Of a DNA stretch of 30,303 bases, positions 159 through 14,865 are shown piece by piece (positions within the stretch are counted from its first letter, which is position 1; each line of letters opens with the position of its first letter). The stretch is from a virus: IMG/VR virus record IMGVR_UViG_3300043499_000163, positions 1 to 30,303 of that record. One strand, written 5' to 3'. The notes beneath the pieces were generated by a model, which had not been told where the DNA came from, made no database searches, and was given only the letters and a program-made list of their open reading frames with translations. Made by a program: the position numbers and the translations under genes.

Positions 159-998
159 ATGTCCATCGGCACCAAAGTGGAGCTGATGGGAGCGCCTGGG
201 TCAGGGAAGACCCACGCGCTTCGGACGCTCGTCGACGCTGGCATCGAGCCATGCGTTCTTTTCACCGACAATGGCATGGACGTGATGAAGGACCTCCGTC
301 ATGCTTCAACGAAATACAAGGAAGCACTCGCCGCCCACAAGGTCCATTGGCATTACGTTCCGCCAGCTCAAACGAAGTGGTCTGACTTCAAAGCGGCCTT
401 CGATCAATCGGCAGCCTTCGACATTGGGACCTTGCAGAAGATGCCCGCCACGGACAAGCGAGCCTTCCCGCAATTCGGGACCCTCTTGCAGACTTGCGAG
501 AAGTTCGTCTGCGACGAATGCAAGGCGGACTTGGGCAACGTCGATTCATGGGGAACGGATCGGGCGTTAGTCCTAGATGGCCTTTCCGGAACCAACTCGA
601 TGCTTCTTTCTTGGGCCGCTGGATCAAAGCCCGCTGTCTCGCAGCCCGAATGGGGGCAAGCGATGAAAATGCAGCTCGCATTTGTCGAGCGCGTAACTCT
701 CGGCCTTGTCTGCCATACGATCATCCTTACTCACCTCGATCGCGAAATCGACCTAACCGTCGGTTCTGTCAAGCTCATGCCTCTTGCTTTGGGCGCCAAG
801 AATGCGCCGCAACTCGGGAAATACTTCACCGACATTATTCTGGCGGAACGCGTAGCGGACACTTCCGGTAACATGAACTGGAAGTGGCATCTTGCTCGCG
901 TAGACGCTGATGTGAAAGCGCGGAACCTGGATTGGAAGAACAATCAGGAGCCGTCTTTTGTGCCACTAATCGAAACTTGGAGAAAAGCGAATGTTTAG
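159..998 (+). CDS. Sak4-like RecA-fold ATPase (AAA family phage nucleotide-binding protein)
   Basis: This 279-residue protein has a Walker A motif GAPGSGKT at residues 11-18 and a Walker B strand ALVLDG ending near Asp140, followed by a hydrophobic strand with THL near 190 and a conserved-looking GAKNAPQLGKYFTD segment. This is the layout of the phage AAA/Sak4 group, single-domain RecA-like ATPases that promote single-strand annealing or recombination. A CxxC pair (near 118-121) lies in an insert between Walker A and B. The ATG has a GAGGAG ribosome site six bases upstream. Its stop overlaps the start of the next gene, a likely single-strand DNA-binding protein, the usual partner of Sak4-type proteins. 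The exact family is inferred from motifs and context. Confidence 0.75.
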   Translation: MSIGTKVELMGAPGSGKTHALRTLVDAGIEPCVLFTDNGMDVMKDLRHASTKYKEALAAHKVHWHYVPPAQTKWSDFKAAFDQSAAFDIGTLQKMPATDKRAFPQFGTLLQTCEKFVCDECKADLGNVDSWGTDRALVLDGLSGTNSMLLSWAAGSKPAVSQPEWGQAMKMQLAFVERVTLGLVCHTIILTHLDREIDLTVGSVKLMPLALGAKNAPQLGKYFTDIILAERVADTSGNMNWKWHLARVDADVKARNLDWKNNQEPSFVPLIETWRKANV

Positions 999-3388: not shown

Positions 3389-3693
3389 ATCGTAGAGACT
3401 TCTTCAAAGGCTTAGTAGCCTTGGGCTTAGTCGCCACGTTGCCGAAGGCCGAGGCTTTAGTACCATTGGTCGAAGCCCTTCCGAAGAAAACCAGCTTCGC
3501 TGGAAACTACTTCGCCATCTGGAAGGGTCGACATTTCTACCACTATTCAATGTTCGCCGGAGACATTCCAGCTAACGCTGAAGTCTACGAAGTGAACATG
3601 AAAAAGATTCTTTTCTTCCCCGAAGGGGAAGATGAGAAGTACGGAATGGGCTCCGTACCGTCTGGCATGGATGCCTACTGGCATCATCAATAA
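3385..3693 (+). CDS. Exported protein with a twin-arginine (Tat) signal peptide
   Basis: This is a 102-residue protein if it starts at the ATG in the ATGA overlap at 3385, with AGAGG upstream. An upstream in-frame start at 3319 would bury the signal and was not used. The N-terminus reads NRRDFFKG at residues 2-9, a close match to the Tat consensus, followed by a short hydrophobic stretch (LVALGLVATL) and PKAEA as a plausible cleavage site near residue 22. The mature part of about 80 residues is rich in Tyr, His and Phe and matches nothing I recognise. Tat substrates cross the inner membrane folded, often with a cofactor; whether that applies here is unknown. Confidence 0.7.
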   Translation: MNRRDFFKGLVALGLVATLPKAEALVPLVEALPKKTSFAGNYFAIWKGRHFYHYSMFAGDIPANAEVYEVNMKKILFFPEGEDEKYGMGSVPSGMDAYWHHQ

Positions 3694-3706
3694 CTTGGGA
3701 GTTAAA

Positions 3707-4273
3707 ATGAAAAGCTTCATTGCTAGTGTTCTGCTCGTGTTCGTTTCCTTGCTCTCGCTTCCTTCGTATGCAGCCAATAATCTGACTTGTGGAAACGCCG
3801 GTGAGCCGACGCATCCCACTGCAACCACAGGGTGGGCCTGTGTCTACCATCACGACACAGGAAGCGCGTACGAAATCATTTGGCAATTTCCACCCTGGTT
3901 GGAAAGTGATGGCTATAGTCCCTATAGCTACTCGCCGAGTCCTAGTGAGTATTACGCGCTCCACTGCATCGACTACGATGAAAATCTACAGCCACAATAT
4001 GGTGATCATGTAGGGCCGAATACCATCAGACAGCCTGTGCACGTGCAAGTAAAGGACTACTTCCAAGGGTATCCTCTGTACACTTGGCACTACAGTCACT
4101 ACTACTACGACGTGACCTGTACCAGTGTGACGCCGGCGCCGCCGGACTTCGATGAGGAAGACCCAACCTGGTGGGTCTGGGTGGAAAACCCCGTCTATAA
4201 CGGGCTCTGGTGCGAAATCTACCGCTACATGGGCGGTACCTGCAACGGCATCTACTTCCCTCCGAACTGGTAA
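3707..4273 (+). CDS. Sec-exported Cys- and aromatic-rich protein, unknown function
   Basis: This 188-residue protein starts at the ATG at 3707 preceded by GGGAG; the longer frame from 3632 would overlap the previous gene and hide the signal peptide. Residues 1-22 are a standard Sec signal (MKSF, a Leu/Val-rich core, then PSYA before ANN). The mature protein has about seven cysteines, suggesting disulfides and a periplasmic or surface location, and is very rich in Tyr and Trp (for example WHYSHYYYDV and WWVWVENP). No domain is recognised. With its neighbours it forms a run of four envelope-directed genes between methylase and polymerase. Confidence 0.75.
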   Translation: MKSFIASVLLVFVSLLSLPSYAANNLTCGNAGEPTHPTATTGWACVYHHDTGSAYEIIWQFPPWLESDGYSPYSYSPSPSEYYALHCIDYDENLQPQYGDHVGPNTIRQPVHVQVKDYFQGYPLYTWHYSHYYYDVTCTSVTPAPPDFDEEDPTWWVWVENPVYNGLWCEIYRYMGGTCNGIYFPPNW

Positions 4274-4284
4274 GGAGTAACTTG

Positions 4285-4308
4285 GGGCGGCTTCTCACGA
4301 GGCCGCCC
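4285..4308 (+). terminator. GC-rich hairpin, possible weak terminator or mRNA stabiliser
   Basis: GGGCGGC (4285-4291) pairs with GCCGCCC (4302-4308) across a 10-base loop, 11 bases after a stop codon and before a new ribosome site at 4321. No T-run follows, so it is at best a weak terminator; it may divide the envelope genes from the polymerase genes. Confidence 0.35.
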
Positions 4309-4332
4309 TTGGGTACTACCTAGGAGATTCAA

Positions 4333-4473
4333 ATGGAAAGTCTATGGATTGCAGCCTTCATCCTTTGCGGCTTCGGTATCGGCGGCTGGTGCGTCGCCGC
4401 TGCGCGGGAACTTGACCATGCGAAAGTGCGTAAACAACGCGACGAACTTCTCTCGCATATCAACAAGCTGTGA
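4333..4473 (+). CDS. Small single-pass membrane protein
   Basis: This 46-residue protein starts at an ATG with TAGGAG seven bases upstream, and its TGA overlaps the GTG of the polymerase gene (GTGA), both good signs of a real gene. Residues 4-23 are a hydrophobic, Gly-rich helix (LWIAAFILCGFGIGGW), followed by a charged helix (AARELDHAKVRKQRDELL). The likely topology is N-terminus out with a cytoplasmic charged tail. It could be a regulator, an exclusion factor or a tiny holin; nothing in the sequence decides this. Confidence 0.65.
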   Translation: MESLWIAAFILCGFGIGGWCVAAARELDHAKVRKQRDELLSHINKL

Positions 4474-6167
4474 CGTCCTACGTTCCGCAATGTTACTCTC
4501 GCGGTCCGGCTTCGCCGAAGATCCTCATCGTCGGCGAAGCCCCTGGCGAGCGCGAGGTAGCAGCGCGCCTTCCGTTCGTCGGCGCCTCCGGGCATGAACT
4601 CGACAAGATGCTGCGCGATGCGCGCATCAACCCAGACGACGTGCGCTTCACGAACGTCTTACCAATACGTCCCGACAAGAATGACTTCGAGAAAGCGTTC
4701 TTGTTTAGCAGCAAGAAAGCTGCCGGCTCAGAAGGAATATACCATAATGGAGTCTATTGCCGTCCCGTCGTCGTGGAAGGTATCCGAGAATTGTGGAACG
4801 AGATTGACGCTTGTAACCCAAATATCATCGTTCCGGTCGGTAACGTTGCCACATGGGCAATCACAGGCCGTTGGGGAATTACCAAATGGCGCCGTTCCGA
4901 GATTGGAGTTGAGCATAACGCTCGAACATGGAAGGTTGTTCCTACGTATCACCCAGCTGCCGTCATGCGTACGTGGGAGTATCGACCCATTACAGTCCAC
5001 GATTTCCGAATCGTAAGGAGGGAGAGTGAGTCTCCAGACATCAATCGTCCTGATTATGATTTCCTTCTTCGTCCTAACTTTCACGACGTTATGGATTATA
5101 TCGGTGACCTACTGGACCGTCACCAACAATCCCGCCTGCGGCTTTCCGTCGATATTGAAACGCGGAACCGACAGATTGCTTGTATTGGCTTGGCTCGTAG
5201 CGAGCGCCATGCCATTTGTATTCCTATACAGTCTGTCGAATCTCCCGTAGGCTCCTATTGGACCGAGGAGGAGGAACTTGAAATCATCTGGAAGCTGCGC
5301 CCTCTGCTCACTACTGCGCACATCATTGGTCAGAACTTCTCTTACGATAACCAATACTTCGCGCGTGGCTACGGGTTTGCATGTAACCTCGTTGACGATA
5401 CTATGCACATGCAGCATATGGCCTTTCCTGGCCTACCTAAAGGCTTGGACTTTCTATCGTCAATGTACTGCGAGCACCACGTGTATTGGAAGGACGAGGG
5501 TAAGCATTGGGACCCCCGTACGACACACGAGGACCAGCTATGGAATTACAATTGTATCGACGCCGTGGCGGCCTACGAGTCTCGTAGTGTCCTGGCGCAA
5601 GTCCTCTCCGATTTTAAGCTGCTTCCGCAGTACCGGGAACGCATTCTTACGCAGCGCAACGCGTTCACGATGATGCTACGCGGCACTCGTTCCGATACGA
5701 CTGCCAAGTTGCAACTCTCGTCCGACCTCGATATTTCCCTTGCGCACATTCGCAAATGGTGGGACGACGTCGTCGGCTACGACATATTCGGTAAGGATAA
5801 GAAGCACGGGAAAATCCCTGGTGTTTCCTCCAAGAAGTTCAAGACTTTCTGCTACGATGTCTTGAAACTTCCCCATAAGTTCGCCGGTTCCAAAGGAAAC
5901 AAGAAACTCACGGCGAACAAAGAAGCCTGTCAGGAATGGGAGGAAACATGCGATGTTATCTTTCGTCCCTTGCTCGCAGCAGTGCGCCACTACCGCTCTA
6001 TGCTTGTGTTCAAATCAACGTTTGCGGATCAGGAACTTGATTACGATCGTCGCTGGCGCTGCACGAATAACGCCGGGCTCATGGTCACTTTTAGATGGAG
6101 CACTAGCGAAGATGCGTTTGGCTATGGAACCAACTTGCAAAACATTCCCAAAGGAGACGAACGATGA
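4470..6167 (+). CDS. Family A DNA polymerase, N-terminal piece: UDG-like domain, 3'-5' exonuclease, start of polymerase domain
   Basis: This 565-residue protein starts at GTG (GTGA overlap). Residues 1-190 resemble family 4/5 uracil-DNA glycosylase: GEAPG at 22-26, PFVGASG, TNVLPIRP, and TYHPAAVMR near the domain end. Few cysteines are present, so the usual 4Fe-4S ligands look incomplete. Residues about 220-370 are a DEDDy exonuclease with SVDIET (Asp228, Glu230), GQNFSYD (Asp293) and YNCID (Tyr360, Asp364). The rest is the family A polymerase thumb and part of the palm, ending in TNLQNIP (554-560) and a stop five residues later. The polymerase motifs A, B and C are missing here and appear in a separate ORF from 7039. 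It should supply proofreading and possibly uracil recognition to a two-chain polymerase. Confidence 0.85.
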   Translation: MTSYVPQCYSRGPASPKILIVGEAPGEREVAARLPFVGASGHELDKMLRDARINPDDVRFTNVLPIRPDKNDFEKAFLFSSKKAAGSEGIYHNGVYCRPVVVEGIRELWNEIDACNPNIIVPVGNVATWAITGRWGITKWRRSEIGVEHNARTWKVVPTYHPAAVMRTWEYRPITVHDFRIVRRESESPDINRPDYDFLLRPNFHDVMDYIGDLLDRHQQSRLRLSVDIETRNRQIACIGLARSERHAICIPIQSVESPVGSYWTEEEELEIIWKLRPLLTTAHIIGQNFSYDNQYFARGYGFACNLVDDTMHMQHMAFPGLPKGLDFLSSMYCEHHVYWKDEGKHWDPRTTHEDQLWNYNCIDAVAAYESRSVLAQVLSDFKLLPQYRERILTQRNAFTMMLRGTRSDTTAKLQLSSDLDISLAHIRKWWDDVVGYDIFGKDKKHGKIPGVSSKKFKTFCYDVLKLPHKFAGSKGNKKLTANKEACQEWEETCDVIFRPLLAAVRHYRSMLVFKSTFADQELDYDRRWRCTNNAGLMVTFRWSTSEDAFGYGTNLQNIPKGDER

Positions 6168-6394
6168 GTGATTCGATGATCGGTGAGCTGCATCCTCCGG
6201 CGCCATTGCCAAGGGAGGAATTCGAGACTACGATCGTGGCAAAGGATTGGTGGATCGTCGTTTATCCAGCGACCGATCTGCACCACAGGCTGGCTATGAA
6301 GCTGGGCGTTTCAACGAAATGCGGACAGCTCGTCGCGCTAACGCCAGACGAGATGGCACTCTTGTCCGAGTTCATGGTATGGCCGCAGCGATAG
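6164..6394 (+). CDS. Unknown 76-residue protein between the polymerase halves
   Basis: The ATG overlaps the polymerase-half stop (ATGA), and a strong AGGAG lies inside the last polymerase codons eight bases upstream, so translation is well supported. The sequence starts with a Pro-rich segment (HPPAPLPREEF), then a strand-like KDWWIVVYPA and a helix containing LTPDEMALLSEF. No family, metal site or membrane segment is recognised. Its end overlaps the Lon-like gene by 16 bases. It could be a partner or substrate of that protease, but this is only positional. Confidence 0.6.
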   Translation: MSDSMIGELHPPAPLPREEFETTIVAKDWWIVVYPATDLHHRLAMKLGVSTKCGQLVALTPDEMALLSEFMVWPQR

Positions 6395-7038
6395 CCTATG
6401 GCATCATCCTAGTCGATGACGCTGCGCGTCGACTAGCCGTTTCGGCGGAGTTCAAACTCGGCCGAGGAATGTTAATAACTGAATGTCTCGTAACGCAGGA
6501 AATCCGAGTCGTTCTCTATTCCGTAATGGAAGCCATCGCCGGACTCGAATCATACATTGAAGGTTTGTCGTGCACGAAGTTCGGAACGCACGACTTGATC
6601 ATCAAGATGGATTCCAAAATCCCCGTAGGCGGAGAGTCCTACGGACTTCCATTAGCAATGGCAATCGTCGCCGCCATGCTTCGACAGGAACTCTCCGACA
6701 AAACCTGCTTCACAGGCGTTATCGAACCAGGTGGAATCATTCTCCCGGTCGAAGACATCGACAAGAAACGTCACTTTGCCGCGATGTTGGGCTTCCAGAA
6801 GATCGTCCTTCCGTCGCGGCAATTAGATCTCCTCAATTCGGAGATCAACCAATGTCCAGTGGACTCTATCTACGGAGCTGTCGGTGGATACTTCTGGGAG
6901 TGAAGCGCCATAAAGGTGAATCGTACCGTGCTTTTTTACGACGTAAGGCACGGAACAAAGAGCAGCGTTGTGGCTGCTTAGGCTGGTGGTTTCCACACCG
7001 GCGCGGATCTTTAGCTTCGACGTACATGCAAGAAAGAT
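6168..7038 (+). other. Insert separating the two polymerase pieces
   Basis: About 870 bases lie between the stop after NLQNIP and the first usable start of the piece with motif A. In intact family A polymerases these motifs are only about 20-40 residues apart. The insert is filled by the 76-residue unknown, the Lon-like gene and a possible small ORF joined by ATGA/GTGA overlaps. No homing-endonuclease motif, intein motif or clear intron core was seen. Confidence 0.7.
6379..6903 (+). CDS. Stand-alone Lon-type (S16) serine protease domain
   Basis: This 174-residue protein starts at the ATG at 6379; longer starts would run through the preceding gene. It aligns by eye with the proteolytic domain of Lon. 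An N-terminal GRGMLITE segment (28-35) sits where Lon has PGxGxLxLTG, and VMEAI precedes a helix. GESYG at 85-89 replaces Lon's GPSAG, with the nucleophile at Ser87. GIILPVEDIDKK (119-130) replaces GxVLPIGGLKEK, with Lys130 as general base. The Ser-Lys distance of 43 residues equals Ser679-Lys722 in E. coli Lon. FTGVIEPGG and FQKIVLPS also match Lon strands. No AAA+ ATPase or substrate-binding domain is present, so any proteolysis would be ATP-independent or need a partner. It lies between the two polymerase pieces. Confidence 0.85.
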   Translation: MAAAIAYGIILVDDAARRLAVSAEFKLGRGMLITECLVTQEIRVVLYSVMEAIAGLESYIEGLSCTKFGTHDLIIKMDSKIPVGGESYGLPLAMAIVAAMLRQELSDKTCFTGVIEPGGIILPVEDIDKKRHFAAMLGFQKIVLPSRQLDLLNSEINQCPVDSIYGAVGGYFWE

Positions 7039-7145
7039 TTGGAGTACCTGGCTGTGGACGACTTGCGGATTCCCGGATTGGACAAGTGGACAAAGCCGAA
7101 CGTTCGGAAGGTGTTTCTTCCCGATCTGAACCATGTCCTTTTTGA
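6900..7145 (+). CDS. Possible small basic protein overlapping the start of the polymerase C-terminal piece
   Basis: An 81-residue frame opens at a GTG that overlaps the Lon-like stop (GTGA). The first 50 residues look protein-like: a basic helix (RHKGESYRAFLRRKARNK), then RCGCLGWWFPHRRGS, a compact Cys/His-containing segment. From 7039 the frame is antiphase to the polymerase C-terminal piece, so the last 35 residues may be just its shadow. It may be a real small gene, the remnant of an insertion, or the start of the polymerase piece reached by a +1 frameshift. The weak start site keeps confidence low. Confidence 0.3.
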   Translation: MKRHKGESYRAFLRRKARNKEQRCGCLGWWFPHRRGSLASTYMQERFGVPGCGRLADSRIGQVDKAERSEGVSSRSEPCPF

Positions 7146-7869
7146 GATCGACCTAAAGCAAAGCGATGCTCAGGTCATCGCGTGGGACGCGAACGCAGCA
7201 AAGCTTAAAGCAATCTTTCGTGCCGGAGCAGACCTTCACACGGAGAACGCGAAAGCAATCTATGCAACGCAGTCGCCATCGGGGCATCAAAGACAGATGG
7301 CGAAGCACGGAGTCCATGCAACGAACTTGATGAGTTCGACCAAGACGATGGCGAAGAAACTCGACATGACCATCCACCAGGCGCAAGCCTTTCAAAATCG
7401 GTGGTTCTCGATCAATCCTGAAATCCGCCTGTGGCATCAGAAGCTCGAGCGACAAGCCATGACGACGCGAACTGTGGCAAATGCTTTCGGCTACCGGAGA
7501 ATATTCTTCGGCCGGATCGAGAGCATCCTCCCAGAGTTCGTGGCATTCATTCCGCAATGCACGACCGTCAATGTTATCGACAAGATCTTGAATCGAATAA
7601 TGGGCGATGCCCAGAACAACATAGCCCCGGAGGTGCCAGAGGCACAGATACTACTACAGGTCCACGATTCCATCGTCGGCCAGTTTCATGAAAAAGAATG
7701 GCCAACGATCGTTCCTCGTTTACACGCTTGCACACAAATAAAGGTACCATACGATGAGCCACTCATTATCGGAACAGACTTCTCAGCGTCAAGGATATCC
7801 TGGGGGGCAGTCAGGAAATATGCTTGGGAGTCCTTCTACTTCGCCATCGCCCCCGCCCTACCTGACTAG
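7039..7869 (+). CDS. Family A DNA polymerase, C-terminal catalytic piece
   Basis: This 276-residue protein is read from a TTG at 7039; the frame is open back to 7015, and GTG at 7054 is an alternative. It begins just before the KPNVRKVFLPD segment that in intact polymerases follows NLQNIP. Motif A is DLKQSDAQV (catalytic Asp38), motif B is RQMAKHGVHATN (Arg85, Lys89), and motif C is QVHDS (His209, Asp210). Motif B has His93 where E. coli Pol I has Phe762 and Leu97 at the Tyr766 position; motif C has Ser instead of the usual Glu. All nucleotidyl-transfer residues are here, while exonuclease and UDG-like domains are on the first piece, so both chains should be needed. Weak ribosome site (AAGAAAG). 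Confidence 0.85.
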   Translation: MEYLAVDDLRIPGLDKWTKPNVRKVFLPDLNHVLFEIDLKQSDAQVIAWDANAAKLKAIFRAGADLHTENAKAIYATQSPSGHQRQMAKHGVHATNLMSSTKTMAKKLDMTIHQAQAFQNRWFSINPEIRLWHQKLERQAMTTRTVANAFGYRRIFFGRIESILPEFVAFIPQCTTVNVIDKILNRIMGDAQNNIAPEVPEAQILLQVHDSIVGQFHEKEWPTIVPRLHACTQIKVPYDEPLIIGTDFSASRISWGAVRKYAWESFYFAIAPALPD

Positions 7870-8107
7870 ACTGCTAACGCATTGCGACGAGAACGAGAAG
7901 CTTTTGATGGAAGCCGTCGGGCATCTGTCGAACATGCTCGAAGCAATGGGACTCGATCAGGGACCGAATGCGCCCGAAGGACGCCCGGAAGTTTCCGCAC
8001 AGCGCACCGGCTTTCCCGCAATAGAGGAGCGATTGGAAAACCATCGCCGCCTCGCACGCCGTCTGCACCTCTACCTGAACGCGCTACGAGCCCAGGTCGT
8101 TGGCTAG
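7754..8107 (+). CDS. Small protein of unknown function
   Basis: This 117-residue frame starts inside the polymerase end (116-base overlap), with AAAGG upstream. ATGs at 7820 and 7907 are later alternatives, and the Ser/Pro/Gly-rich first 35 residues are less convincing than the rest. The body is helical: a segment ending HLSNMLEAMGLD, then a C-terminal helix rich in Arg and Leu (IEERLENHRRLARRLHLYL). The stop overlaps the TTG of the next gene by eight bases. No family is recognised; a small accessory replication factor is possible. Confidence 0.5.
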   Translation: MSHSLSEQTSQRQGYPGGQSGNMLGSPSTSPSPPPYLTRLLTHCDENEKLLMEAVGHLSNMLEAMGLDQGPNAPEGRPEVSAQRTGFPAIEERLENHRRLARRLHLYLNALRAQVVG

Positions 8108-9416
8108 GAATGTTGCAAATTGGCTCCACGGCTACATGGAGTACACCAAGCATCTGGAAGCACCAGACCTCTTCCATTTGTGGGTTGCCGTCGGGACAGT
8201 TGCTGGAGCTCTCCAGCGAAAAGTTTGGATAGATCAGTACCACTTTCAATGGAGCCCGAATTTCTTCATTGTTCTTGTCGCTCCGCCGGGAGTAGTTAGC
8301 AAATCGACTTCCGCGAACATCGGCATGGACTTACTTCGTAATGTCGAAGGAGTATCCTTTGGCCCAGACTCCGTCACTTGGCAAGCCCTCTTCGATTCTT
8401 TTCAAGACTCTGCAACCGTTGTTGAGGGAGTCGGAACTACCAGCCCCCTTACAGTTGCGGCTTCTGAGTTGGGCACGTTCCTTGACCCTCAAAACAGGGA
8501 GCTCGTCGACGTTCTTAACGATATGTGGGACGGAAAAGAGAGGCCAATTACTAGGCGAACTCGTGGTGAAGGCCTCTCAACAATTGAAAAGCCATGGCTT
8601 AACCTTATTGGCTGTACAACGCCCGGATGGCTCGAAGAACATGTCCCTTCTGTTATGTTTAAGGGAGGGTTCATGTCCCGTACCGTATTTGTCTATCAAG
8701 AGAAGAAGAGATTCTTAACCGCTTATGTTCGCGAAAAGATGGGCCAAGGCGTGGCAGACTTCGCTGTTCTTCGTCAGCATCTTATCAATGATCTACGTAC
8801 CATACATGAAATCAAGGGCGAGTACACTCTTACCCCGGCTGCGATACAGTGGGGAAAAGATTGGTATGAGAGACACTGGACGGACAAGAACCCTCACGGG
8901 CTCGATAAGGAACTCTTTGGTCCGTATTTCGCTCGAAAGCAAACGCACATACATAAGCTTGCGATCGTCCTATCGGCAGCGGAAACAAATCGCCGTGTGC
9001 TTGACGTTTACCACATCGAGCAAGCAGAGAAGCTGGTCACTTCGCTTGAGCCGAACATGAACCGCGTCTTAGGCGCCATCGTCGATACGACGGAAGTTCG
9101 TCAAGTAGCCTTCCTTTGCCGCCTATTTACGATGTCCCAATCCGCAATAGGAAAGCAAGACGCCTGGCGCATTTGTATGCGTCAGATGTCTTTGGAAGAG
9201 TTCTACAATGCTCTTCGCGCTAGTATTGCGGCGGGCTTTGTCCGGGAGCAGGGGACGGGCTCCGACCTGCTACTTGTGCCGAACCTTCCGGAAATCGCTG
9301 CTCAATACGGCGGTACAGCGCCCGAAAGCTATTCTCTGAAGGCACACCATTCTCCCGAAGTGTCGCCCTCCGATAGCGCTGGACCACAGACTGATGGAGA
9401 GCATCTTGACCGATAG
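8100..9416 (+). CDS. Putative replicative helicase/ATPase, DUF3987-like
   Basis: This 438-residue protein is read from a TTG overlapping the previous stop. An N-terminal region (residues 15-55) with FHLWVAVGTVAGALQRKVW is typical of DUF3987-type phage and plasmid proteins. It leads into APPGVVSKST at 61-70, a degenerate P-loop with Lys68. ASELGTFL near 120-130 probably belongs to the Walker B region, and a middle stretch has IGCTTPGWLEE. The C-terminal third has winged-helix-like segments (MSLEEFYNALRASIAAGFV). DUF3987 proteins are usually called helicases or primase-helicases, so this is the likely replicative helicase for the split polymerase. The last 65 residues overlap the opposite-strand gene by 197 bases and look low in complexity. 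Confidence 0.6.
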   Translation: MARNVANWLHGYMEYTKHLEAPDLFHLWVAVGTVAGALQRKVWIDQYHFQWSPNFFIVLVAPPGVVSKSTSANIGMDLLRNVEGVSFGPDSVTWQALFDSFQDSATVVEGVGTTSPLTVAASELGTFLDPQNRELVDVLNDMWDGKERPITRRTRGEGLSTIEKPWLNLIGCTTPGWLEEHVPSVMFKGGFMSRTVFVYQEKKRFLTAYVREKMGQGVADFAVLRQHLINDLRTIHEIKGEYTLTPAAIQWGKDWYERHWTDKNPHGLDKELFGPYFARKQTHIHKLAIVLSAAETNRRVLDVYHIEQAEKLVTSLEPNMNRVLGAIVDTTEVRQVAFLCRLFTMSQSAIGKQDAWRICMRQMSLEEFYNALRASIAAGFVREQGTGSDLLLVPNLPEIAAQYGGTAPESYSLKAHHSPEVSPSDSAGPQTDGEHLDR

Positions 9417-12400
9417 CCAAGACCTTCGACGGAACGACCTTGTTGTACTCCCGAATCTTCTTGGTCGCCAAGTCCACTGCTTCGGGCTCACGGGCCATCT
9501 GGGCGTAGGCATAGCTCTCCATCAAAGCGGCTCGGCGACTGGTCCAGTACTGGCGGAGTTGTTCCTGCGAATACCGAAGCTCCGTTCTTTGATTCAATCT
9601 CGTCGGCGCGAACCCAAGTGCCTGTGCGATATTTTCCATTCTGTGCTGTATATTCTGCGGCTCAAATTCAATGACCTTCCCACCTCCTCGGAATGTTTCG
9701 CCACCCTGCGATCCACGACGGAAGCTCTTGCTAACACTTTGGATGGCGCTGGGCATCGCACGTTCCCAGACTTTCCAGGTATCGGGGTTATCGTCGACGC
9801 TTGCACGCCACAAATTATACCCCATTCCTACGACGGGTCCAAAAGCATCTATGAGGACTTTGCCAATTTTCGCGTCCGGATCTTCGTTTGCGGCGAATGC
9901 CTCACGCAAGCCTGGAATTATGTCTCCGGCGCCAAGACTCCCGCTTACGTCTACGTTGGGAACAGGTACGTCAAACAGGGAAAGGAAGTGCATTGGACCC
10001 AATCCGTAATACCGCGAAAGGCCATGCATGATCATATCCGGCGAATCAGTGATAGTGTTCGCGAGATCACGTATGTCGCCACGGAGATCAGTTCGTGGGT
10101 CCTTGCTCCCCATCAAGTCTTTAACCTCAGTCGCGCCGAAGTCGAAAATGTCCATGAAGTTCTGCGCGAATGGAAGCCCTTCGACGCCCGCTGCGAGAAG
10201 CAATGCCAGCCAGACTCGCATTGCCACCTTGCTCCCTTCACCGCCATAAGCGAGGTATGACAAATGTTGCGCGTAGTTCCAAAAGAGAAAGAACACAGAC
10301 TTTTTACCGCGCATGAACTCCGGGCGATTCCACTTAGCGTATTCAAACATGGTCGTCTGTACAGCCTCGCGCGCTGCACGATAGACCTGTTCGCCCTTCA
10401 TTCCTCTGCTCTTTGCCAGTTCTCGGGCAGCCAGAAAGACGGTCTCACGATTGAACTTTTCGGCGTGCCGGAAAAGGAAACTTCCGTAGTGCGAGAACTT
10501 GTTAACGATCTGACTGCTGGTACTCTGCGGCATCAGCCGTTCAAGAATGTTTCCTTCAGCCAAACCAGCAAGCTCGGTCGCACGACTTTCATCTACGAAC
10601 CCATCCGCTATGGCCCTCGCCAAATCAGCGTCAGTCTCAGCATCCAAGACCTTGCCACCACGACGCATCTTGGCGACATCCGAATAGGCTTTAGCGATAG
10701 CCCCGAACGCAGCCTTGTCGCCGTAGTGGTGGGCGAGATAAGGATAGGCAACCATTGGCACTTGCGTCAGGTTGACCAGTGCGGATTTTACATTGAAGCC
10801 GAGGTACCACATGAACCCTAGGCTTCTCAATCGTGCCCAATCATTCCCCGGATTCATGAGGTATTGAAAATGTCTAGCGAAGTATTCTCTGATCTCCCCA
10901 GCACGCGTGGCATTTATCGGCAGCGAAGCCTCCCGACGGATGTTGCTGAGACTCTCCCCCAAATCCTGATGAAACTCCACACGAGCGAGATGGTTAGCGG
11001 CGTTCATCATGTAGGAAGCGTAAGTACGGATCGCATCGCTACTAAACCCAGCGATATCCTTACGACGAATGAGGTGTTTGAGGAACGCGGCCCCAGGCGA
11101 AAACTTCCGGTAAATTTCCTTGAGCCTCTCTTCCTGTTCACCCGTAAGTCCCAGCTCACCCCGGAGTACCTCGTACAAAGAAGGAGGCATTCCGAGGAAA
11201 ACGAATTCGTTGTCGCTGAGTCGGTCTGTCTTGATCTCGAAATGCGGGTCCTTGCCAAACATCCCCTTGGAAAGTTCCTGGCGCCGTTGAATCTGAGCTG
11301 CCGGACCTTCATGGGTTTCAAACCAAACGACTTCACCAGACTTGCCTTCACGTGGTCCCTTGAAGTCCTGACCGTCAACAGTCACGTCAGCCTTGGCGCG
11401 GACCGTAATCGCATACTTCCCAAACCGCATTCGGGGGAAATAGTTACGATTACGGAGAGCCTGCATCTGCCGTTCGATTTCCAAAAGGCGTCCGCCGAGG
11501 TGCAGATCCTTAAGATCCTTGGAGCTAGCGACCTCGTCGAAGAACGTTCGATGGCTCGCTTCCCGTCGCCAGTTCTTGGCGAGGTCTTCAGCCCGCTTAC
11601 GATTGGTGATTGGGTTGGTGCCTTCGGGTTCGCGAATGGCCTGGCGGATTACAGTAATCTGAAGGCCTTTCTCCATGTCATTAACGATCTGCTGAAAACT
11701 CTGGTCCATATCTCGCCAAATCTCAAATACGTTTCGACTGCCGACATGGCGAGCCCCTTTGGAGGCAGCAGTGGTGGAAGGATCGAGGCCGTTGCGGACG
11801 AAGACAGCTTTGATCTCAGCTTCTGAGAGGCGCTCATTCTTGGCGTCCGACTCTTGAGAAATCTCGACTACTACCTTTGCCAGCTTTTCCGCGTCTCGCT
11901 TGCCAAGCTTGGTCCATTGCTCCGCGATCTCGACGGGGGTGTTCGTCAAGTTTCGCTTGCGCGCCCACCATTGCTGCACGAATTCAAGGTAGGTTCCTGC
12001 GGACGGCAATGTCTTCTTGACATAGGTAGAGTTCGCCATCTGGAGTGGCGTCAGGACGCCATTAAGGAACTTCTGTCCCCAGACCTCTCCCCATTCCTTT
12101 AGACCAGGTAGCGTTTCCGTCGTGAAGGTGTTGTTCCTTCCGATCGCTCGCTCAAATTCGCGCGATCGGAAGGGTTGGGAAACATCCCGTAAGTTACGTT
12201 CCGTAACCTGCGTATTGTTTCTTGACCACGCCCCTACGTCCTTAATCATCGAACGAATTTCCGCGTCGGTGACTTTGAACGTGGGCATTAACCGACGTAG
12301 GACGCGCGAGAAGAATGCGATGATCCGATCCATGAAGCCAGACTTCGGATCTTTCTCGGCCTGCTCAGCAAGGACTTCTTCCGCCTGCTGAAGCATAGCC

Positions 12401-14865
12401 TCGTTGAGCATGTTCCGATTCTTCGGGCTCGGATCATTAATTGTCGCTGCCAGCTCCGTCATATGGAAGTTTTCGACCTTCGCCGTTACTTCCTTGCCGA
12501 AGCGAGCGATCACCATTTCCAGGAACTGGCGCCGCTCCGCGCCATTCATGTAGTTGTAAAAGCCCTTGTGGAACATTTCATGGAGCAACAGTCGCGCCAA
12601 CTGTTGCGTGCTTTGAATCCGATCCGAGAAGATGTAAACGGTATCCGGCTCCTTCTGAAAGAACATGCCGATCGTGTCGTACTTCTCGGCGACCAAGTGG
12701 CGCCGATCCGGAACGTCCCTGAAGTAGCCAGTATTCGGCGTAACGACGAACGTGGGCTTCCTCGGGAAGTTTGCGGACAGCTCCTTTACCGCGGCCGTGA
12801 CCTGTTCGACAGAAAACTTTACCGTCGCAGGACGACGACGGCCACCTTCCGTACGCGTGGACTCACGCGAGCGCATGACGCCCTCGGGAACGCCTTCGGA
12901 GAGAAACTCCTCGGAGCCGATTGCCGTGTTAACCTCGAAGGGCGGAGCTTCTGACAGAGAACGCAATTGATGTGCGCTTAACCGAGCATTGCGCTGCTTC
13001 TTAGGCCTGGCAATCCGCTTCAAATACAACTGCTCGAGAGTCTTCTCTTCCTCGTCCGTAAGGCCTTCTGTGACTTCCTTTTCTTCGAGCTTCGCCACGA
13101 ACTCCTTCTCGCCAGGACTCAAATTCCCCTGCTTCGCCTCGTTGATTTCGTCCGTGTTGAACTTCTGGATTTCCTTGCTCGCATCCTCCTTCAAGTCCAA
13201 ATGCGTAGCAATGGGATTCGGGGCGCCAAGCAACTCCGTAGTTCGCTTAATCCTTGCCTCAACGGCAGCGACCTGCTTCTTGCCAGACTTCGATAATTCC
13301 CCTCCCTTCGTATTCCGAAGCTTCGGATCGGCCAGAATATCATCCCGCGCCATTAGAAGATTCTTAACTTCCGGCGCCACACGAACTTGCTTGTCCTCCG
13401 GCTGGGGCTGAGCAGCGATCTTTTGCCTTCTCTTCTTTCCCGTCTGTATCGTCGAATTTGCAATGACGATTCCATTGTCCGTTGTGGAGCGCATTTCCGG
13501 AGGCAACTTCACCACGCTCTGCGCTAGCAAATCCAGCGAATCGACGCCCTGAGCGGAATTCTGAACTGCCGTGCCGTCGTCCTTAAAGACGGTTGCGGAG
13601 TCCGGAGTATCTTCCTTGTCGGAGTTTAACTCCCGACGAATGGCCGTCCGCAAGTCTGGCGCAGCCTTCGGCTGTAGCGCAAACGGAACGACGTTCTCCT
13701 GCGGAAGGGCAATAATTTCCTTCCCGGCGTCAATCTTCGTGACGTTGCCTTCCGGATCGACTTCGTAAATGATGTCGGACGTTCGCGTTCGTGGACCAGG
13801 AGGTCCAGGCGGACCGGGCGGCGGAGGCGGTAAGCGGCGCTGACCGAGATGCGCGCCTTCCAATGCGAGCGTCGCCATCTCCTCCGGAGGAGGAAGCGCT
13901 AACTTCGCTCCTTTCTGCAAATCGTCGACTTCGTCTTGATCCCTGTCCTCATCCTCGCCACCGGGGTTTGCGCTCGTCCGCATTACGGCGGCGGGAATTC
14001 CGAGGATTGAGAAGGCCGCTGCGCCTGCGGCAGCGTTCTTTAGCTGAGACCATTCATCGTCGGTTAAAGCCCCCCTATACTGCGTATACGCCCTGTTAAG
14101 GGCGATATCCATAGCTTCCTGGGCAACCTCCGTGGGAACCTCGCGGGCGGCAATGGTGCCCATTTCTCCCGCTACGCGAGCGAAGAAGCCGCCCTCGGTG
14201 AGGGTCTTCGCGATAGAGCCTTCGATTAAAGGTCCCAACGGAACCGCCTTCAGCAGTCCAATCCGCTTCGCAACTGTCAACATGGGAACGAAGTCTAAAA
14301 CTCCCTTCCCAATTCCGGTGCCGACTACTCGATAGTCCAAAGGACTTTGACCATTCTGGCGCGCAATCTCTGCGCTCTCCCCCGTTTGCAACCCGGCGTC
14401 AACAAGGAAGCCCGAAACAGCTCCCGCAACTTCCGCACCACGCAACGAAGCACCAGCCAGACCAGCAACCTTCGCGGCGATGCCACCAGGAAGCGCAATA
14501 CTCGCCAATAGTGGAGCGTTTTCGACGAGCGTCTCGACAGCAAACGTTCCCAAGTCTCCAAGATCCTGAATGTCCTCCATGCGTGGCACGCGCCGAGGGA
14601 TTTGATCCCTAGCGTCGGCGAACTCTTGAGCCTTATCATAAAGCCCTTGGGAAACTTCGTCGAAGCCAGCAGCCTGCGCAGCCATACCGGCCACGTTCGT
14701 CATGTCCGCTGCGACGCCTTTCATTCCCCGTTCAAAAGGACCCGATAGAAAGCCGGGCTGCTCCGTCGGAGAAGCTGGACCCGGACGTACCTGCGGGTTC
14801 GGGAAGAGGGCATTGACCTTCTCCCGCTCCTTCGCAATGTACTCGTCAATCGGAATAAGAGCCAT
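9220..14865 (-). CDS. Giant polyvalent ejection-type protein with an HExxH metallopeptidase domain
   Basis: This 1,881-residue protein is the last of the structural operon, where podoviruses encode the large protein ejected with the DNA. Visible parts: Gly/Ala-rich hydrophobic segments (about 90-310) that could cross membranes; a short Pro-Pro-Gly-rich linker near residue 350; a Lys/Glu-rich coiled region (about 480-640); and HEMFH with His762, Glu763 and His766, followed about 70 residues later by AEEVLAE, the pattern of zinc metallopeptidases in large polyvalent proteins. A long C-terminal helical region with FSHYGSFLFRHAEKFNRE and FFLFWNYAQHLSYL resembles the LPD38-type domain. It may degrade a host or envelope protein on entry. 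No lytic transglycosylase motif was seen. Its 3' end overlaps the convergent helicase gene. Confidence 0.75.
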   Translation of the reverse strand: MALIPIDEYIAKEREKVNALFPNPQVRPGPASPTEQPGFLSGPFERGMKGVAADMTNVAGMAAQAAGFDEVSQGLYDKAQEFADARDQIPRRVPRMEDIQDLGDLGTFAVETLVENAPLLASIALPGGIAAKVAGLAGASLRGAEVAGAVSGFLVDAGLQTGESAEIARQNGQSPLDYRVVGTGIGKGVLDFVPMLTVAKRIGLLKAVPLGPLIEGSIAKTLTEGGFFARVAGEMGTIAAREVPTEVAQEAMDIALNRAYTQYRGALTDDEWSQLKNAAAGAAAFSILGIPAAVMRTSANPGGEDEDRDQDEVDDLQKGAKLALPPPEEMATLALEGAHLGQRRLPPPPPGPPGPPGPRTRTSDIIYEVDPEGNVTKIDAGKEIIALPQENVVPFALQPKAAPDLRTAIRRELNSDKEDTPDSATVFKDDGTAVQNSAQGVDSLDLLAQSVVKLPPEMRSTTDNGIVIANSTIQTGKKRRQKIAAQPQPEDKQVRVAPEVKNLLMARDDILADPKLRNTKGGELSKSGKKQVAAVEARIKRTTELLGAPNPIATHLDLKEDASKEIQKFNTDEINEAKQGNLSPGEKEFVAKLEEKEVTEGLTDEEEKTLEQLYLKRIARPKKQRNARLSAHQLRSLSEAPPFEVNTAIGSEEFLSEGVPEGVMRSRESTRTEGGRRRPATVKFSVEQVTAAVKELSANFPRKPTFVVTPNTGYFRDVPDRRHLVAEKYDTIGMFFQKEPDTVYIFSDRIQSTQQLARLLLHEMFHKGFYNYMNGAERRQFLEMVIARFGKEVTAKVENFHMTELAATINDPSPKNRNMLNEAMLQQAEEVLAEQAEKDPKSGFMDRIIAFFSRVLRRLMPTFKVTDAEIRSMIKDVGAWSRNNTQVTERNLRDVSQPFRSREFERAIGRNNTFTTETLPGLKEWGEVWGQKFLNGVLTPLQMANSTYVKKTLPSAGTYLEFVQQWWARKRNLTNTPVEIAEQWTKLGKRDAEKLAKVVVEISQESDAKNERLSEAEIKAVFVRNGLDPSTTAASKGARHVGSRNVFEIWRDMDQSFQQIVNDMEKGLQITVIRQAIREPEGTNPITNRKRAEDLAKNWRREASHRTFFDEVASSKDLKDLHLGGRLLEIERQMQALRNRNYFPRMRFGKYAITVRAKADVTVDGQDFKGPREGKSGEVVWFETHEGPAAQIQRRQELSKGMFGKDPHFEIKTDRLSDNEFVFLGMPPSLYEVLRGELGLTGEQEERLKEIYRKFSPGAAFLKHLIRRKDIAGFSSDAIRTYASYMMNAANHLARVEFHQDLGESLSNIRREASLPINATRAGEIREYFARHFQYLMNPGNDWARLRSLGFMWYLGFNVKSALVNLTQVPMVAYPYLAHHYGDKAAFGAIAKAYSDVAKMRRGGKVLDAETDADLARAIADGFVDESRATELAGLAEGNILERLMPQSTSSQIVNKFSHYGSFLFRHAEKFNRETVFLAARELAKSRGMKGEQVYRAAREAVQTTMFEYAKWNRPEFMRGKKSVFFLFWNYAQHLSYLAYGGEGSKVAMRVWLALLLAAGVEGLPFAQNFMDIFDFGATEVKDLMGSKDPRTDLRGDIRDLANTITDSPDMIMHGLSRYYGLGPMHFLSLFDVPVPNVDVSGSLGAGDIIPGLREAFAANEDPDAKIGKVLIDAFGPVVGMGYNLWRASVDDNPDTWKVWERAMPSAIQSVSKSFRRGSQGGETFRGGGKVIEFEPQNIQHRMENIAQALGFAPTRLNQRTELRYSQEQLRQYWTSRRAALMESYAYAQMAREPEAVDLATKKIREYNKVVPSKVLAIGQDALHQSVVQRYRRATLRENGVPSENSFRALYRRIEQRFPEGSAQVAGRSPSPAPGQSPPQY

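Follow-up and report, generated by a model that had tools for sequence, protein, structure and literature searches.

A stand-alone Lon proteolytic domain between the halves of a split family A DNA polymerase in a metagenomic phage

The 30,303-base IMG/VR record IMGVR_UViG_3300043499_000163, analysed here at its full length and referred to as the window, encodes a Lon (S16) proteolytic domain (P-domain) as a gene of its own, located in the gap that separates the parts of a split family A DNA polymerase. On balance, we favour the reading that its product is an ATP-independent Ser-Lys peptidase encoded at a cargo site in the split polymerase. Judging by gene content (profile matches), the window is a tailed-phage genome, with a Sak4-like ATPase, a ParB-methyltransferase, the polymerase and a DUF3987 primase on the plus strand and the portal, major head protein and endolysin genes on the minus strand. 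The minus strand also carries a gene (9220–14865) for a 1,881-aa protein with 35–41% identity to its counterparts in both Lon-bearing relatives described below, which is probably a large virion protein. The features relevant to the Lon gene are as follows.

159–998, plus strand: Sak4-like AAA_24 ATPase
4470–6167, plus strand: polymerase N half, with a uracil-DNA-glycosylase domain, a 3'-5' exonuclease and the start of the family A polymerase up to NLQNIPKGDER
6150–6156, plus strand: AAAGGAG inside the codons of the N-half KGDE tail, placed to be the next ORF's Shine-Dalgarno site (candidate)
6164–6394, plus strand: 76-aa ORF, whose start overlaps the N-half stop (ATGA)
6379–6903, plus strand: stand-alone Lon (S16) proteolytic domain, 174 aa (ORF call, Pfam, PDB profiles, AlphaFold2/Foldseek, HMMER)
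7039–7869, plus strand: polymerase C half (palm/fingers, motifs A, B and C), TTG start
8100–9416, plus strand: DUF3987 primase/helicase-like gene of the replication module, downstream of the polymerase (profile match)

Identity and fold of the Lon domain

An earlier note, made from the sequence alone, had read the ORF with ATG at 6379 and TGA at 6903 as a Lon domain without an ATPase or substrate domain; the coordinates were right, and Pfam and PDB profiles and a full-length model agree with the assignment. The 174-aa protein matched Lon_C (1.1e-5) and ChlI (2.9e-6), both exceeding the curated cut-offs, and when the PDB was searched with a profile built from the three phage Lon proteins, Lon P-domains were hit at about 1e-14. 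The AlphaFold2 model (pLDDT 86.9, pTM 0.87) matched Lon P-domains over residues 1–174 in Foldseek (E about 1e-12). Structural alignment with VIA gave Z scores of 24.4 to 6on2 and 23.5 to E. coli 3wu6, the whole length being aligned with E. coli and Yersinia Lon at Z 23–24, and the Lon domains of RadA and ComM scored slightly lower (22.9 and 22.8). Because the profile matches and the end-to-end alignment of the model coincide, the protein is a single Lon P-domain with no other part. No ATPase match was obtained for it with Pfam profiles or structure comparison; the P-domain fills the whole ORF, leaving no AAA+ module in the same chain such as defines the ATP-dependent LonA and LonB proteins. 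The profile of VP4, the Birnavirus S50 Ser-Lys protease, matched one relative (L006) only, at 19.8 bits and thus under the 24-bit cut-off.

Active site and state of the window copy

Ser87 (codon 6637–6639) lies within GESYG, and Lys130 (codon 6766–6768) follows 43 residues on. The proposal that this pair corresponds to Ser679 and Lys722 of E. coli Lon was borne out by the HMMER alignments, in which both residues fall on the catalytic positions; the GESYG serine is aligned to the Lon catalytic serine that is Ala in the 1rr9 mutant. Both residues are kept in the two relatives, and the 43-residue spacing, counted on the sequences, is intact in all three phage proteins; in the window protein, the dyad accompanies a P-domain fold that extends through the full chain, as in S16 proteolytic domains. 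The three proteins share 33 invariant columns, including G85, S87, G89 and K130. GESYG does differ from GPSAG, as was pointed out earlier, but the deviation is less odd than it seemed, since the LonA-like GPSLG occurs in one relative and GDS in archaeal-type Lons.

Between the window and L006, the differences at codon positions 1, 2 and 3 are 0.45, 0.35 and 0.67, highest at the third position, and no stops interrupt the frame, suggesting that the Lon gene is probably maintained under purifying selection. As two relatives keep the gene in place and third positions differ most, the ORF is not due to chance. Of the three proteins, that of the window has diverged furthest (Lon_C 25.5 bits, compared with 64.8 and 41.7), and it has lost the GG preceding the catalytic Lys segment (LPVEDIDKK vs LPVGGIKDK). 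For these reasons the window copy may be weak or inactive, and with the GG absent its predicted activity is less sure than that of the L006 copy. When taken out of ATP-dependent Lons, P-domains generally show poor enzymatic activity.

Lon-bearing relatives and descent

Two other metagenomic phages (IMG/VR 3300027872_000027 and 3300045996_001573; L006 and L016 below) have a Lon gene in the same place. The window protein is 42% and 27% identical to the two relatives, whose Lon_C matches are stronger (1e-17 in L006 and 1.2e-10 in L016). Among 181 distinct related polymerase loci, only these three, all of them metagenomic contigs, carry Lon, and in each the gene is located between the polymerase halves; no Lon was found outside the polymerase gap when 50 phage records, fragments included, were searched. 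In a tree of 101 polymerases, those of the three carriers form one clade (SH-aLRT 100), and most genes are common to all three phages. Because their polymerases form one supported clade, the Lon gene was probably acquired once and then passed on by vertical descent, which would explain its common position.

The gene preceding Lon varies: the window has the 76-aa ORF there, L006 has a hydrophobic ORF of 68 aa that is unrelated to it, and L016 has none. A partnership between Lon and its 76-residue neighbour, which the earlier note had entertained, was therefore dropped, since that ORF is not conserved in Lon-bearing relatives.

Single-protein and alignment scans of IMG/VR recovered only L006 and L016, and a scan of 84,980 bacterial and archaeal genomes found no Lon relative beyond the two already named; these scans are pattern-based, and distant relatives can escape them. 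No stand-alone Lon gene was recognised in 50,697 phage records (INPHARED), whose matches were examined in part. One INPHARED candidate for a phage Lon (H1) was a bacterial RadA on a faecal contig, and a second (H2) matched in like manner; later matches were Lon/RadA-like proteins from bacterial records or from short contigs that lack annotation. When the methyltransferase and primase of the Lon clade were used as queries instead, no additional Lon carrier emerged.

The split polymerase loop as a cargo site

Both flanking polymerase halves, between which the earlier note had placed the Lon gene, are real by profiles and by motifs A, B and C, and the two ORFs jointly cover one family A polymerase. 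The C half has a 19-residue lead before PNVR, as it does in L006. The same loop is split in 52 of the 181 distinct related UDG-exonuclease-family A polymerases, with the N half stopping a few residues past NLQNIP and the C half beginning just before LPNxRxxF. The gaps range from 0 to 2.3 kb; in several phages the halves overlap or almost touch (0–30 nt in 9 of the 52), and 49 have a possible next start that overlaps the N-half stop or is at most 10 nt away from it. In the polymerase tree (n = 101), about 10 changes between split and whole forms, in either direction, are needed, at least 5 of them on well-supported branches.

The KGD/E tail of the N half is often encoded as AAAGGAGAY, which resembles a ribosome-binding site. 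Such a Shine-Dalgarno-like tail was present in 38 of 51 split and 47 of 117 whole polymerases (Fisher p 5e-5, a value that is too optimistic because the sequences are related). Based on the start/stop overlaps and this tail, the halves are probably separately started chains of a two-subunit polymerase. Promoter and terminator patterns occurred at chance level only.

Depending on the clade, the gap holds a dUTPase, a methyltransferase, an HNH endonuclease, an exonuclease, Lon or nothing, and the split ends are alike in Lon and non-Lon phages. A special tie between Lon and the polymerase, as first suggested, agrees with the position of the gene in all three carriers but is weakened because the same split occurs in the 52 loci with many other cargoes or none. 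As the gap may be empty or hold unrelated cargo, Lon is one passenger at a cargo hot spot and would be expressed with the replication genes.

A pair of loci with 87–90% DNA identity, L164 and L165, differs exactly at this junction; the halves of L165 overlap as ATGA, and L164 has an additional ORF there.

L164, 4562–5002: HNH/AP2-like ORF at the junction
L165, 4060–4085: the matching junction

This junction is possibly the site of a free-standing homing endonuclease, gained in L164 or lost in L165.

Comparison with known systems

With the P-domain of E. coli and Yersinia Lon (S16), the phage protein shares the full-length fold, the spacing of the Ser-Lys dyad and the order of strands and helices; unlike these Lons, it has no AAA+ and no N-terminal substrate domain, and its motif is GESYG or GPSLG. 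LonC (MtaLonC, PMC3391209) serves as the working model, namely Lon-type proteolysis without an ATP motor. However, the N-terminal region of LonC is large and includes an AAA-like part (PMC3391209); the phage protein lacks such a region and is thus not a LonC. The Lon domains of RadA/Sms and ComM have the same fold, form rings and are linked to DNA processing, but they are fused to an ATPase, whereas the phage protein is the domain alone. It also differs from RadA/Sms in having neither a fused RecA-like ATPase nor Ala/Arg at the dyad, the residues found at these positions of RadA in the alignment made here and likewise in the literature (PMC5512693).

The polymerase arrangement has a published precedent. 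In the OM43 phages MEP401/402 (Zobellviridae; PMC10580990), two ORFs encode a family A polymerase and are separated by a small ORF that was reported to have no known homologues (PMC10580990); the cut lies ~13 residues further on, after NLQNFDGEIKTLFLSRYGE (checked here). Vibrio phage vB_VspS_VS-ABTNL-3 (PVS_29/28/27) has a polymerase of the same family cut at the same loop, and its cargo, unlike the Lon of the window, is a 184-aa protein without a Pfam match. The earlier note knew of no described phage system with an isolated S16 domain inside a split replicative polymerase. A split polymerase with a small internal ORF is already published; for the protease, neither open-licence papers nor the collections searched yielded a free-standing Lon domain described from a phage or from a site of this kind. 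The combination of a stand-alone Lon with a split polymerase appears to be undescribed.

Proposed function and alternative explanations

As an ATP-independent peptidase, the Lon protein would assemble from six P-domain copies into a ring, with Lys130 activating Ser87 inside the ring chamber. Lon P-domains form hexamers by themselves (PMC5512693), and LonC cuts unfolded proteins without ATP (PMC3391209). By analogy, the phage ring might cut unfolded or flexible polypeptides, or alternatively a host AAA+ protein might deliver the substrate. The polymerase would be produced as two separately translated ORFs, split in the loop that links NLQNIP to the palm motif, as the start/stop overlaps suggest, and the AAAGGAG in the tail codons of the N half could serve as the ribosome-binding site for the next ORF. 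The junction cargo differs between lineages, being Lon in that of the window, and from its position at the polymerase junction, Lon would be made together with the replication proteins. A host protein or unfolded protein in general is more likely to be the substrate than the polymerase itself; direct action on the polymerase is possible, a suggestion drawn from position alone.

The domain could instead be a non-proteolytic, RadA/ComM-like ring scaffold that helps the Sak4-like ATPase or the DUF3987 primase/helicase load on DNA. The similarity of the model to the RadA and ComM domains almost equals that to Lon, the window does encode a Sak4-like ATPase, and the Lon gene lies within the replication module, but all three members keep the Ser and Lys that are Ala and Arg in RadA, and related phages have similar replication genes without Lon; we regard this explanation as unlikely. 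Alternatively, a protease could act on the replisome, trimming or regulating the polymerase halves or the primase. The occurrence of Lon between the halves in all carriers and nowhere else in the 50 searched records, in a position kept although the small neighbours turned over, is consistent with this. Nevertheless, 49 of the 52 split polymerases have no Lon at the same site, the split ends are similar with and without it, and a single acquisition followed by vertical descent accounts for the position, making such a role rather improbable. The same low probability applies to the idea that the motor-less ring functions within the replisome, where it would cut or remodel replication proteins at the fork, or a host factor there.

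Whether the window copy is a decaying relic of a formerly active protease has to be weighed against its own sequence. Its profile score, the lowest of the three, and the lost GG fit decay, but the open frame, the dyad, the 33 invariant columns, the excess of third-position changes and the confident full-length model make this highly unlikely. Introns are common in phage polymerases, and the insert might likewise be a self-splicing intron or an intein remnant, with the polymerase rejoined and the Lon-like ORF as an intron passenger. For OM43 phages, whose polymerase is similarly split, an intron was proposed (PMC10580990), and HNH genes are present at the split site. However, no known Rfam family matched within 5900–7300 even at E up to 1, and the short gaps and overlapping halves, together with possible next starts on or near almost every N-half stop, also argue against it, so we consider it most improbable.

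If the preferred reading of an ATP-independent peptidase is correct, this phage S16 domain, having an intact dyad but no ATPase, would amount to a minimal Lon enzyme and would be useful for asking what a P-domain achieves in the absence of the motor. More broadly, many phage lineages have the family A polymerase split at one particular loop, which acts as a docking place for unrelated genes; this offers a testable model for how phages build two-subunit polymerases and where cargo sits.

Other observations at related polymerase loci

Six loci form a clade with a dUTPase-like gene between the halves (L117, L141 and L142 by Pfam; L154, L157 and L159 by similarity); the polymerase that this gene adjoins includes a uracil-DNA-glycosylase domain. 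In L146, positions 3480–4979 between the halves are taken up by a di-haem oxidoreductase-like gene (DHOR, 3e-36), which is odd for a phage. The C half of L087 (5941–7629) contains an in-frame insertion of ~280 aa that is intein-like by appearance (ends ...NGEISVTGN-S). A second recurrent break, at the exonuclease/polymerase boundary (profile position about 348/351), was observed in L022, L041, L048, L064 and L071; that of L064 holds a 139-aa ORF resembling an HNH-type endonuclease by eye.
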